From Vulcanimicrobiia bacterium (GTDB taxonomy: Bacteria; Vulcanimicrobiota; Vulcanimicrobiia; Eremiobacterales; Eremiobacteraceae): a stretch of 36,705 bases of DNA. Positions 30,631-36,705 of this stretch are shown here, piece after piece (position 1 is the first letter of the stretch; each line of letters opens with the position of its first letter). The notes beneath the pieces are model-generated. The model saw only the letters and a program-made list of their open reading frames with translations, was not told the origin of the DNA and made no database searches. The stretch covers positions 1 to 36,705 of the forward strand of contig JANWLL010000027.1 in assembly GCA_025450855.1 (NCBI GenBank), read 5' to 3'. Both the position numbers and the translations under genes were made by a program.

Positions 30631-32787
30631 ATGGATGAACCACCGCACATCATACACCGTGCGCGATCCGCGTTGAGCGCGTCCGCGAGCCGCCAACGGC
30701 ACAGCCAAAGACACGGCATAACGATCGCAGCCGTTGCACGCGCCGCGAGCGCCGCGTCGTCCGCCGCAGCGCCCATCGCGCGCTTGCAATCACTGCTCGA
30801 AGAAGCGCTCTCCGCCTCGGGAGCGCGCCGCGGCTGCGTCTTCGCCCACGACCGCGTCACCGGCACGTACGGGATCGTCGCGCACTGCGGACTACGCGAG
30901 GACACGGCGTCCGGGTGGAAGCTCGCTCCGCCGACGATCAGCGATCCGGCCTTCTTCGCGCCCGAGCGCTTGCTCGCGGATCAATTCGCACAGTCGGAGC
31001 GAATCGGCAGCGCGGTCGCCTCGCCTATCACTGCCCGCGGCACGGTCGCCGGCGCGATCTGCTTGTTCGACCGCCCGCTCGGCGGTTTTGACATCGACGA
31101 CGAAGACTTCGTAGTCGCGCTCGCCGCGGTCGCTGCCGGCGTCGTCGCCGAGCTATCGGAACGCCGGGAGATCGAGGCGGTTGCGGCTCGTTACGACGAG
31201 CAGCTGACGGCGGTCAACGATCTCAGCGCCGCGCTCGTCGGTGGCACCGATCTCGCGACCGTGCTCCCGGCTGCGCTCCAGACTCTGCTCGAGACGCTCG
31301 GCGCTGATGGCGGGCTCGTCTTCGAGAGGTCGGCCGCGAGCGGTGAGGCCGCCCTCGTCTGTTCGATCGGCATGCCGTCGACCGACGCCGCATCGCTCGC
31401 GCAGCGGGCGAACGATTCGCGCGCCGACAGCATCCTGCGGCGCACGATATCGTCGGGGAGCGCCATCTTCGCAGATGACCTGACGACGGACGAGCTGCCC
31501 GAATCATCGCGTCGGCTCGCGCAGCGTCTGGGCATCAGACAGATCGCATCGCTGCCGCTGCGTGACAGCGGAAGCGTCATCGGCGTTCTCCAGATATTCA
31601 ACCGCTTCTCACGACCCTTCTCGCCGACCGAACGCGAGACGCTGCGGCTCGCGCAAGGCCAATTCGCGATCGCGCTCGGGCGCGCGCGCCTCGTCGACGA
31701 GATCTGCGATCAGAAGAACACGCTCGAGCGGGTGCTCGCGGGGACCGCAGACGGCGTCTACGTCATCGATGCAAAAGGCAGGTTCTTGCTGTGGAACGCG
31801 GCGGCCGCGCGGATGACGGGAGTCGGGCCCGAGGAAGCGCTCGCGATCGGCTACGAAGCGATCGGCGGCGCCGACCGCCAGGGCCGCTCGCTCGCAGACC
31901 TCGACCGGCGTGCGTTCGAGTCCGCCATCGCCGATCCGACCAAACGCCACAACTCGTTCTCGTACGAGGTCTACTTCGACGCGACCTCGCGCTGGGTCGC
32001 CGTCTCCGCGTCGCCTTTGCGCGATCACGCGGGTTCGATCGGTGCGATGGTCCACGCGTTCCGCGACGTGACCGCGGCGCGCGAAGTCGAACAGATGAAG
32101 TCCGAGTTCATCAGCACGGTGAGCCACGAGCTGCGGACACCGCTGACCTCGATCAAAGGCGCGACCGCACTGCTCTTCGATCAGATCGGCAACGACGCGG
32201 GGACGACCGGCGAGCTGCTCGAAATGGTGCGCAACAACTCGGAGCGCCTGTTGCGCCTGATCAACGATCTGCTCGACGCGACGAAGCTCGAAGCCGGTAA
32301 GCTCGCGATCCGGCGCCGCGCGGTCGAGCCCAAGCCGCTCCTCGAACGGGCGGTCGCGAGCATGGCCGGCTATGCGGAGGAATACGGGGTGATCGTGCGG
32401 GCAGACGTCGCGTCAGGTCTCGCACCGATAGTCGCCGACCCGGATCGCGTCGAACAGATCGTGACGAATCTCGTCTCGAACGCGGTGAAGTTCTCGCATC
32501 GCGGTGACGAGGTCGTCGTGCGTGGGTGCGTCGACGGCGACTTCCTTAAGGTTGACGTCGCCGATTGCGGCGTCGGCATCGCCGAAGACGACCTCCCGCG
32601 GCTGTTCGAGCGCTTCACGCAGCTCGAGCATGGACGACGCACGGGGCCAGGAACCGGTCTCGGACTTGCGATCTCGAAGGGTCTTGTCGAAGCGCACGGC
32701 GGCTCGATATCCGTGTCGAGCAGGCTCGGAGCAGGCTCGACGTTCACGTTCGCGCTGCCGTTCGCGAAACGCGCCGAAGACAAATAG
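30631..32787 (+). CDS. Soluble GAF-GAF-PAS sensor histidine kinase
   Basis: Kinase of 718 aa with no membrane segment. Two GAF-like domains (about residues 50-190 and 195-350) are followed by a PAS domain (about 360-480). HisKA has H499 in STVSHELRTPL. HATPase carries N box NLVSNAVKFS, G1 as DCGVGIA (usual DTG), F box FERFTQLE and G2 GTGLGLAIS. No response regulator is adjacent, so it is an orphan kinase. The GAF domains probably sense a cytoplasmic ligand, light or redox state. It is flanked by c-di-GMP genes. Confidence 0.9.
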   Translation: MDEPPHIIHRARSALSASASRQRHSQRHGITIAAVARAASAASSAAAPIARLQSLLEEALSASGARRGCVFAHDRVTGTYGIVAHCGLREDTASGWKLAPPTISDPAFFAPERLLADQFAQSERIGSAVASPITARGTVAGAICLFDRPLGGFDIDDEDFVVALAAVAAGVVAELSERREIEAVAARYDEQLTAVNDLSAALVGGTDLATVLPAALQTLLETLGADGGLVFERSAASGEAALVCSIGMPSTDAASLAQRANDSRADSILRRTISSGSAIFADDLTTDELPESSRRLAQRLGIRQIASLPLRDSGSVIGVLQIFNRFSRPFSPTERETLRLAQGQFAIALGRARLVDEICDQKNTLERVLAGTADGVYVIDAKGRFLLWNAAAARMTGVGPEEALAIGYEAIGGADRQGRSLADLDRRAFESAIADPTKRHNSFSYEVYFDATSRWVAVSASPLRDHAGSIGAMVHAFRDVTAAREVEQMKSEFISTVSHELRTPLTSIKGATALLFDQIGNDAGTTGELLEMVRNNSERLLRLINDLLDATKLEAGKLAIRRRAVEPKPLLERAVASMAGYAEEYGVIVRADVASGLAPIVADPDRVEQIVTNLVSNAVKFSHRGDEVVVRGCVDGDFLKVDVADCGVGIAEDDLPRLFERFTQLEHGRRTGPGTGLGLAISKGLVEAHGGSISVSSRLGAGSTFTFALPFAKRAEDK

Positions 32788-32844: not shown

Positions 32845-34803
32845 TCACGCGCGCCGGAAAGCGCCGCCTTCTCTGTTGCCGACGATGACGCGGCCGTCTA
32901 AGACGAACCCGCTGCCGCGCATCGTCCGTGCCATCCGCTTATACTGCGCCGCACGTGCCGCAAGCCCGCCCCCACCGCTTCCCTGAGCAGCGGTCGCCGT
33001 GACGCCCGCGGCCGCGAGCTCGATCTCCGGCGGCGCCGAACGGACGTCCGCCCCGAGCAGCGACACTTCACGCTGGATGTAGAGGGCGGCGGCGCGGCGT
33101 TCGAACCGCTCGATGATCGCGATGCCCATCGCCTCGACGGTCCGCTCGCTCCCGACGACGACGAAGTTGACGCCCCCGAGATGGCCGACGAGCCCTTGGG
33201 GACCCTCGATCTCTTTCGTCACCGTGACGAGGCACTCGGCGAGCGCTTTGATGACCTCGTCGCCGCGGCCGTATCCGTGGCGCTCGTTGTACGCCCGGAA
33301 GTGGTTGATGTCGACGTGGAGCAGCGCGTACGGCGCTCCGGAATTCGCGCGACGTTCGATCTCTTGCTGGACGAGGGTTCTGCCGGGCAGGCCTGTCAGC
33401 GGGTTCGAGTAGCGGTTGACCGACGCTTGGAACTCGGTCATCGTGTGAAGCAGATCGCGCACGGAGACGACGCCCGAATAGACGCCGTTCTCCAAGACGA
33501 TGACCTCGTCGTAGATCTCGGTCCGGCGGCGATGGACGACCTTGCGCGCGACCTCGTCGATCGAATCCTTCGAGTCGACGGAAAGATACGCGTCGTCCAT
33601 GACGAGCCGAACCGGCCGCTTCGCGTAGATCGAGTAGCCGAATTGCCGCGACAGCCGTTCGTACAGTTTCGTGCGGCTGACGAGTCCGACGGGTGCCCCG
33701 TATTCGGTGAGCACGACGCTGTCGAGGTCGGGGTTGCGCTCGAAGATCTCGAGCACCTCACCGGTGTACGCCGTCGGCATGAGCGCGGGCGCACGACGCG
33801 TGATCGTGTTGACCGCCATGCGCGTCGGCGCGGCGACGACGCGGCTCGCCGACGCTCGCTCGCGGATGAACGCTGCGACTTCCGCCTTCGGCTCGACGAA
33901 CGCGGGCGCCGGCCTCGCGAGCACGTGGCCTTGACCGTAGTCGACGCCGATCTCGATGAGCGTCGCGAGCTCTTCGACGGTCTCGACGCCTTCCGCGAGG
34001 ACGCGGGCGTCGATCCGGCGGGCGAACATGATGATCGCGGCGACGAGCGCGTTCTTCGCGCGGTCTCTGTCGATGTCGCGGACGAGCGCCATATCGAGCT
34101 TGATGTAGTGCGGCCGGATCTCGGTGACCGCATGCAAACTGTTGTGCCCGGCGCCGGCGTCGTCGATCGCGATCTTGAAGCCTTGGCGGCTATAGTGGAG
34201 CAGCGTGCGCTTGAAGAAGTCGAAGTCCGCGATCGCTTCTTTCTCGGTGATCTCGAGTACGATGCGCTCGGCCGGGAGGTGGTGCTGCTCGAGGACGTCG
34301 TGCGTGAGACCGCCGTGGCGCTCTTCGAGCACGTTCGGGCTGATGTTCAAGAATAGGGAACAGCCAGGCGGCAAGCTCGAGGCACCGCTCAGTGCGCGGA
34401 ACCGGCAGAGCCGCTCGAGGACCGGGCCGACGCCGCGCCGCCGCGCTGCTTCGAAGAGCGCGTTCGCGGTCTCGAGGCGCGTGCCGATCGGGCCGCGCGA
34501 CAGCGCTTCGTATCCGATGACGCTGCCGTCAGCGAGCGACACGATCGGTTGATACTCGGTGCGGATGCGGCCTTCGCGCAGGAGCGTATCGAAATCGTCG
34601 TCGGAGAGCTCGCCGTCGGCAGCGGCGTCGGCTCCAGGAAACCGAGGCGGCCGCAAGACATGCGGCAGGACGTCCTCCGGGCGCTGAGAGAGACCGCTGC
34701 TCTCGCCGGTGACGTAGCCGAGCAGACGGCGCAGCCGTGCGCGCACCCGATCTGCTAGCGATTCTTTCACTCGGTCGTTCACCCGTCGATGAAAAAGCCG
34801 CAC
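32845..34803 (-). CDS. EAL-CBS-GGDEF protein, likely c-di-GMP phosphodiesterase
   Basis: Protein of 652 aa. The EAL domain (about residues 75-315) has all expected catalytic residues: E99 (EAL), N153, E184/E187, D214-D215, K235, E271 and Q291. Two CBS-like units (about 325-460) follow, then a GGDEF domain (about 465-630) whose signature is GGVNF (543-547), so cyclase activity is unlikely. It may bind GTP to tune the EAL domain. The N terminus is basic and has no membrane segment. It faces the orphan kinase convergently. Confidence 0.9.
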   Translation of the reverse strand: MRLFHRRVNDRVKESLADRVRARLRRLLGYVTGESSGLSQRPEDVLPHVLRPPRFPGADAAADGELSDDDFDTLLREGRIRTEYQPIVSLADGSVIGYEALSRGPIGTRLETANALFEAARRRGVGPVLERLCRFRALSGASSLPPGCSLFLNISPNVLEERHGGLTHDVLEQHHLPAERIVLEITEKEAIADFDFFKRTLLHYSRQGFKIAIDDAGAGHNSLHAVTEIRPHYIKLDMALVRDIDRDRAKNALVAAIIMFARRIDARVLAEGVETVEELATLIEIGVDYGQGHVLARPAPAFVEPKAEVAAFIRERASASRVVAAPTRMAVNTITRRAPALMPTAYTGEVLEIFERNPDLDSVVLTEYGAPVGLVSRTKLYERLSRQFGYSIYAKRPVRLVMDDAYLSVDSKDSIDEVARKVVHRRRTEIYDEVIVLENGVYSGVVSVRDLLHTMTEFQASVNRYSNPLTGLPGRTLVQQEIERRANSGAPYALLHVDINHFRAYNERHGYGRGDEVIKALAECLVTVTKEIEGPQGLVGHLGGVNFVVVGSERTVEAMGIAIIERFERRAAALYIQREVSLLGADVRSAPPEIELAAAGVTATAAQGSGGGGLAARAAQYKRMARTMRGSGFVLDGRVIVGNREGGAFRRA

Positions 34804-35011: not shown

Positions 35012-36705
35012 ATGAGGGAAACGTTCGAAAGGCTGCTCGAGCCGCTCGTCCGCGAGGACGGCCGACTGCGACCCGCGAGCTGGGACGAGGCGCTCGATCG
35101 CGCCGCCCAGGGGTTCCGCGAGACCGTGGCGGCGCACGGACCGGATTCGTTCGGTCTATTCAGCTGCTCGAAGGCGACGAACGAACTCAACTTCCTCACC
35201 GAGAAATTCGCCCGCGCGGTCGTCGGCTGCAATAACGTCGACAGCTGCAACCGGACGTGACACGCTCCTAGCGTCGTCGGTCTGGCGGCGGTTTTCGGTG
35301 CCGGCGGCGGCACCAGCTCGTATGAGGAAGTCGAGGAAACCGACTTCATCTTCTTGTGGGGGAGCAACGCGCGCGAGACGCACCCCATCTTCTTCCATCA
35401 CGTCTTGAAGGCGGTGCGCCGCGGTGCGAAGCTCGTCGTCGTCGACCCGCGCCGGACGTTCAGCGCGCAGTGGGCCGACACGTGGCTCGGGCTCAACGTC
35501 GGCACGGACATCGCGCTTTCGAACGCGATGGCGAACGAGATCCTCGCTCTCGGCCTCGAGCATCGCGAGTTCATCGCGAACGCGACGTCGGGCTTCGACG
35601 CGTATCGCGCGAGCGTCGCCGGCACGACGCCTGATGATGCAGAGAGGATCACCGGCGTTCCGGCCGACGCGATCCGACGTGTTGCCGTCGAGTACGCGAG
35701 CGCGAAGCGCGCGATGATCTGCTGGACGCTTGGCATCACCGAACATCACAATGCGGTCGACAACGTCTTCGCGCTCATCAATCTCGGCTTGCTCACCGGG
35801 CACGTCGGCCGTTACGGTTCCGGGTTGAACCCATTGCGCGGCCAGAACAACGTGCAGGGCGGCGGCGACATGGGCGCGATCCCGGATCGCTTACCGGGTT
35901 TTCAAGACATCGGAGACGACGCGGCGCGCGGCAAGTTCGAAAAGGCATGGGGCGTCAAGATCCCGCCGGCGCGCGGCAAGCGGCTCAACGAGATGTTCGA
36001 CGCGGTCGAGCAGGGCGAGATGCACGCGCTGTACGTCGTCGGCGAGAACCCGCTGGTGTCGGAAGCAGATCGCCACCGAACCGAAGGCTTGCTGAAACGG
36101 CTCGATTGCCTCGTCGTCCAAGACGTCACGTTGACGCACACGGCCAAGCTCGCGCACGTCGTGCTGCCGGCCGCTGCCGGATGGTGCGAGAGCGAAGGCA
36201 CGGTGACGAACAGCGAGCGCCGAGTGCAACGCGTCCGCAAGATCGTCGAGCCGCCGGGTCAGGCGCGCGACGACATCGACATCGTGTGGTCGATCGCCGC
36301 GCGGATGGGCGCGAGGTGGCCGCGACCGACAGCTCAGTCTTTATGGGATGAGCTGCGCTCGCTGAGCCCGATGCACGCCGGCATGTCGTATCCGCGGCTC
36401 GAGGGGCTTAAGGGGATCCGGTGGCCGTGCTACGACGAGCAGCATCCGGGCGAGCAGTTCCTCCACGCGCGTTTGTGGGAGAAGCCCGCTCGCGGCCGGC
36501 TCGCTGCATTCAACGTGGTAGTACAGGAACCGCCGGTCGATGCCATCACGCCGGAGTTCCCGATCATGCTGACGACCGGACGGCGTCTCGACTCGTTCAA
36601 CTCGGGCGTACAGAGCGGCGAGTTCGAGTCGCCGCTGCGGACGCGCGGCGACTGGATCGACGTCTCGCCGGAGGACGCAGCGGCGCTAGGCGTGGAGGAA
36701 GGCGA
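35012..36705 (+). CDS. fdhA: Selenocysteine-containing formate dehydrogenase alpha subunit (partial)
   Basis: Molybdopterin oxidoreductase that oxidises formate to CO2, running off the right edge. The frame is open from ATG 35012 except for TGA at 35258-35260 (residue 83). That TGA sits in NNVDSCNRT-U-HAPSVVGL, exactly where formate dehydrogenases carry Sec or Cys before a conserved His. The FDH motifs RGQNNVQGGGDMGAIPD, VVGENPLVSEAD, AHVVLPAA, CESEGTVTNSERRVQ and LTTGRRLDSFNSG follow with no frame break. A SECIS-like hairpin is at 35273-35289. Oddly, the N-terminal cysteine motif for [4Fe-4S] is missing upstream of the SWDEAL region. Other subunits would lie beyond the window. Confidence 0.85.
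35273..35289 (+). promoter_or_regulatory. SECIS-like hairpin after the in-frame TGA
   Basis: GTCGTC pairs with GGCGGC (two G-U pairs) around loop GGTCT. The loop is 19-23 bases after the TGA at 35258-35260, the same distance and sequence as the SelB-binding loop of E. coli fdhF as I remember it. The Gly-Leu codons also constrain these bases, so conservation is partly coding. Confidence 0.65.

Follow-up and report, generated by a model that had tools for sequence, protein, structure and literature searches.

The fdhA locus at the end of the contig

The window, by which we mean the whole stretch of 36,705 nucleotides that was analysed, is one complete contig (C27) of a 2.34 Mb assembly that consists of 178 contigs and is 81% complete. 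At its right-hand end lies fdhA, which encodes the Mo/W-bisPGD catalytic subunit of a formate dehydrogenase (Table 1). The gene starts with an ATG and is cut by the contig end, leaving residues 1-564 of about 636, with about 72 codons missing. The product matches PF00384 (E 1.3e-72), and its score against the NCBIfam model TIGR01591, 613.6 bits, stays below the cut-off because the gene is truncated by the contig end. The full-length counterpart in a sister species carries both PF00384 and PF01568, the molybdopterin and dinucleotide-binding domains found for this subunit type. The best solved relatives of the product are HDCR FdhF, methanogen FdhA, and E. coli FdhH.

Translation from the ATG gives MRETFERLLEPLVRE...DSCNRT-U-HAPSVVGL, with a TGA codon in frame. 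In a fuller reading, the gene runs MRETFERLLEPLVREDGRLRPASWDEALDR...NNVDSCNRT-TGA-HAPSVVGLAAVFGAGG and is open up to the contig end. Residue 83, encoded by the UGA within a UHxP motif, corresponds in the alignment to Sec140 of E. coli FdhH (PDB 1aa6). An earlier note on this DNA had placed the TGA at the active-site Sec/Cys position and had the frame open for at least 1.4 kb past it; both points are borne out, the open stretch measuring 1,445 bases. The frame beyond the TGA is also conserved as open in the 22-row alignment. A standard gene caller is expected to report here a TTG-started fragment. Annotation programs are said to truncate selenoprotein genes of this kind nearly always (PMC10100899).

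Table 1. Features in and next to fdhA, in positions of the window.
Feature	Position	Strand	Basis
GAF/PAS sensor histidine kinase, adjoining the EAL/CBS/GGDEF gene	30631-32787	+	
Divergent neighbour of fdhA with EAL, CBS and GGDEF domains	32845-34803	-	
fdhA, Mo/W-bisPGD catalytic subunit of formate dehydrogenase (start ATG 35012, cut at 36705)	35012-36705	+	Pfam, NCBIfam, 22-row alignment
UGA, almost certainly read as selenocysteine, residue 83, predicted metal ligand	35258-35260	+	Conservation and alignment to Sec140 of FdhH
Predicted bacterial SECIS hairpin: stem 35273-35278/35284-35289, loop GGUCU 35279-35283	35273-35289	+	Comparison, fdhF offset
TTG-started fragment, expected artefact of a standard gene caller, not a gene start	35354-36703	+	ORF list; inference

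Conservation of the codon and of a hairpin behind it

Among the 117 genomes of the class, TGA stands at this codon in all 35 orthologues that cover it (62-94% identity; 30 codons read directly, 5 scored by stop count). The TGC or TGT in other strains by which the earlier note would have recognized a nonsense mutation occurs in none of them. Of 80 copies in named genomes from a wide range of phyla, including Acidobacteriota, Chloroflexota, Actinomycetota, Planctomycetota, and Gemmatimonadota, 78 likewise have TGA and the other two TGC; this set comprises 80 loci, a few of them from the class of the source organism, with the codon found in 79 loci, one of which (L205) has two copies. That locus, from Actinoallomurus iriomotensis, holds a Cys copy and a Sec copy of the split subunit within 13 kb. 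Many genomes of the class have, in addition, a second, longer FDH-like gene with one TGA in a frame of ~1,000-1,200 codons (e.g., G002:C18:137799), which was not found in the source genome. A genome-wide reassignment of UGA to Trp or Gly would also have the in-frame UGA translated and would be supported by many TGA-interrupted conserved genes, but none was seen, homologues have Sec or Cys at the position, and TGA is the ordinary stop of 13 of the 24 long ORFs in the window, which leaves this explanation with a negligible probability.

The earlier note had also described a stem with the loop GGTCT 19-23 bases downstream of the TGA, as in fdhF. The offset is indeed identical to that of E. coli K-12 fdhF, the loop GGUCU starting at base 22 if the U of the UGA is taken as base 1. 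The proposed folding check fared less well: the single sequence has a z-score of ~0 and a longer stretch folds otherwise, so that single-sequence folding was dropped as evidence, the hairpin not being unusually stable alone, and the support comes from comparison across sequences. The six stem pairs form in 97 of 97 distinct Sec sequences, and the loop is GGUCU in 95 of these and GGGCU in 2. Under synonymous recoding with the codon usage of the family, the loop and the six pairs together arise in 1.9% of trials. The Gly codon at +7 is GGT in 95 of the 97 sequences, as against 11.7% of Gly codons in class genes, whereas at Gly +13 all four codons are in use.

The individual pairs follow the same pattern. 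At pair 18/30, two sequences have replaced C-G by G-C, each with a double synonymous substitution; the loci concerned (L168 and L177) have GTC -> GTG and GCG -> GCC, and the SECIS stem is kept. Pair 20/28 is C-G, U-G, or U-A and never C-A, despite Val/Ala and Ala/Thr exchanges. The two Cys copies read GGC CTG GCC, with pair 18/30 broken; one of them is that of A. iriomotensis, where the adjoining TGA copy retains GGT CTG GCG. Constraint at the RNA level, compensatory as well as synonymous, is directly visible in this comparison, and through it the predicted hairpin is maintained.

Selenocysteine machinery

SelA is encoded by a 480-aa frame on contig C155 (E 3.8e-138); SelB comes next there, with its first 355 residues present and the rest lost at the contig end. 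SelD (G000:C79:2551-3477, L122) has a UGA of its own (...VVDCAG-U-ASKMDAG) and is itself a selenoprotein candidate (DCAG-U-ASK). Sec-containing SelD is known as a second selenoprotein and, although it likewise has a UGA in the source genome, is not part of the formate dehydrogenase. No tRNA-Sec is present in the 81%-complete assembly, the Rfam matches being to tRNA-Ser, Leu, Tyr, and Thr, but the genome of a sister species of the same genus (G012) has one, with anticodon TCA. Since the 5.3 kb around the G012 tRNA-Sec also lack a counterpart in the source assembly, except for a dispersed repeat, the missing tRNA-Sec is best explained, as far as the sequences tell, by an assembly gap. A dispersed palindromic repeat of ~44 bp with the core CGGTCGACCGTAACGGTCGACCG (L124:5598-5642) was noted at 42 places on many contigs of the source genome, none of them in the window. 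Across the class, tRNA-Sec scores above 63 bits in 78 of 117 genomes, well separated from the next score, 50. In one genus (g45, 8 genomes), neither SelB nor SelD passes the cut-off, tRNA-Sec does not exceed 50 bits, and the formate dehydrogenase in question is missing.

The sel genes to which the earlier note had pointed were thus recovered for SelA, SelD, and the N-terminal part of SelB, and for tRNA-Sec in the same genus rather than in the assembly. The latter absence, together with the fact that standard translation terminates at the TGA, is what would speak for a real stop, arisen by nonsense mutation or sequencing error, and for fdhA being a pseudogene. That all covered orthologues of the class, at 62-94% protein identity, and copies from across phyla share this TGA, that the RNA is under constraint, and that the frame past the TGA is conserved as open make such a stop highly improbable. 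With sel genes found and close relatives free of TGC and TGT at this position, the suggestion that the TGA is very likely selenocysteine is well supported, and we consider that the in-frame UGA of fdhA is almost certainly read in this way.

The detached [4Fe-4S] domain and the split enzyme

Enzymes of the FdhF type start with an N-terminal [4Fe-4S] domain. The fdhA product has no such domain, and its start, like that of all 30 class orthologues that were read, falls right behind the place where the domain would be. No conserved cysteine motif lies upstream of the fdhA start in these orthologues. We have also considered an N-terminal domain missed through an upstream frameshift; this was ruled out, the orthologues being without conserved upstream sequence and the domain lying on a separate gene. 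The Molybdop_Fe4S4 domain (PF04879) forms the C-terminus of a separate downstream protein that also has NuoG-type 2Fe-2S and 4Fe-4S domains and, as a whole, is closest to the N-terminal 300 residues of FdsA.

The gene order observed in relatives is fdhA, a fused NuoE-NuoF gene, and the Fe-S protein gene. The three separate subunits are seen in the sister species (L112) and in others, and two of the three in the source genome, where the Fe-S gene (95% identity to G012) lies at the start of contig C150; the operon of the source genome is therefore broken by an assembly gap. The NuoEF gene was not seen in the source assembly; its place is presumably the gap between C27 and C150. With a simple pattern, 69 of the 77 loci that have enough room show the Fe4S4 signature on the same strand, downstream, a few of these loci being the same genome entered twice. 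In 66 of the 69, its distance from the region of the UGA codon is 4.0-5.0 kb. In a tree, the split subunits form one clade apart from the fused, FdsA-type enzymes that the class also has (100/100), with long branches that leave the exact position of the split clade unsure.

The closest precedent in composition is FDH3 of Actinomycetospora chiangmaiensis DSM 45062 (FdhA3-FdhB3-FdhC3), an organism of another phylum, with a Sec-containing α subunit of 640 aa, a β subunit of 614 aa, and a γ subunit of 316 aa (PMC7176365). The subunits found here, at 636, about 600, and about 300 aa, agree with these sizes, the likeness being one of sizes and description only. All three proteins were detected by proteomics and were induced, formate removal needed selenite, and the enzyme is cytoplasmic and described as NAD+-dependent (PMC7176365). 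E. coli K-12 FdhF likewise has a Sec metal ligand with His as the next residue, and a GGUCU-loop SECIS at the same offset, but it has its own N-terminal [4Fe-4S] domain and partners with a hydrogenase, whereas here the domain is on another protein. The NAD+-dependent enzymes of the FdsABG/FDH1 type (PDB 6tg9 and 7vw6) have the same set of domains, i.e., NuoG-type Fe-S, Molybdop_Fe4S4, catalytic, NuoE, and NuoF; in these, however, the Fe-S and catalytic domains constitute a single α chain with Cys, while here they are encoded by two genes, the catalytic one first and with Sec. In a Chloroflexi genome from Lost City, nuoG, hoxF, and hoxE lie next to fdhA, accompanied by selenocysteine genes (PMC7117926), and this locus is perhaps of the same split type.

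The operon of fdhA, NuoEF, and Fe-S protein genes suggests a cytoplasmic, NAD+-linked enzyme. The sister species has a ferredoxin-like gene near the operon, which would fit an alternative in which the UGA is Sec and the catalytic subunit, independent of the Fe-S protein and NuoEF, uses another acceptor such as ferredoxin. We regard this as unlikely, given that NuoEF and the Fe-S protein are encoded directly 3' of fdhA, that the Fe4S4 signature recurs downstream in most loci, and that three proteins of matching sizes are co-induced in A. chiangmaiensis (PMC7176365).

The best explanation as a whole, to which we give a probability of roughly 0.95, is a UGA decoded as selenocysteine through a SECIS element in a split, cytoplasmic, probably NAD+-linked formate dehydrogenase. 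SelA, SelB, SelD, and tRNA-Sec would decode the in-frame UGA, directed by the fdhF-type hairpin just downstream, a reading of the codon that the comparative evidence strongly supports. The resulting selenocysteine would ligate Mo/W-bisPGD, the separate Fe-S protein, equivalent to the N-terminal half of NuoG ending in Molybdop_Fe4S4, would supply the [4Fe-4S] domain to the catalytic subunit, and the fused NuoE-NuoF subunit would hand the electrons to NAD+. What the sequences show is the codon with its conservation, the constraint on the RNA, the sel genes, and the split gene order of relatives; the insertion of Sec itself, the assembly of the subunits, and NAD+ as the acceptor we infer, the last two from the domains and from the A. 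chiangmaiensis precedent.

According to a 2026 review (PMC13188914), FdhA is the most widely distributed bacterial selenoprotein. Sec recoding in formate dehydrogenases is well known; the form with a separate Fe-S protein is widespread and little described. Within the literature covered, which is incomplete, we found no paper that names Eremiobacterota along with both selenocysteine and formate dehydrogenase, and none on the detached [4Fe-4S] domain as such. The odds seem to us about even that the split enzymes represent a monophyletic clade of Sec formate dehydrogenases spanning phyla, the metal-adjacent [4Fe-4S] cluster being given in trans by a separate NuoG-like subunit; this would be a structurally uncharacterised α architecture that has spread together with its SECIS.

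The present analysis restores a gene that would be broken in annotation, and it adds to the Eremiobacterota a formate oxidation that depends on selenium and is probably NAD+-linked. The most interesting aspect of the finding is the split catalytic subunit, which is common in uncultured phyla: such a formate dehydrogenase would be a simple system in which to learn how a [4Fe-4S] cluster can serve a molybdenum site from another chain.
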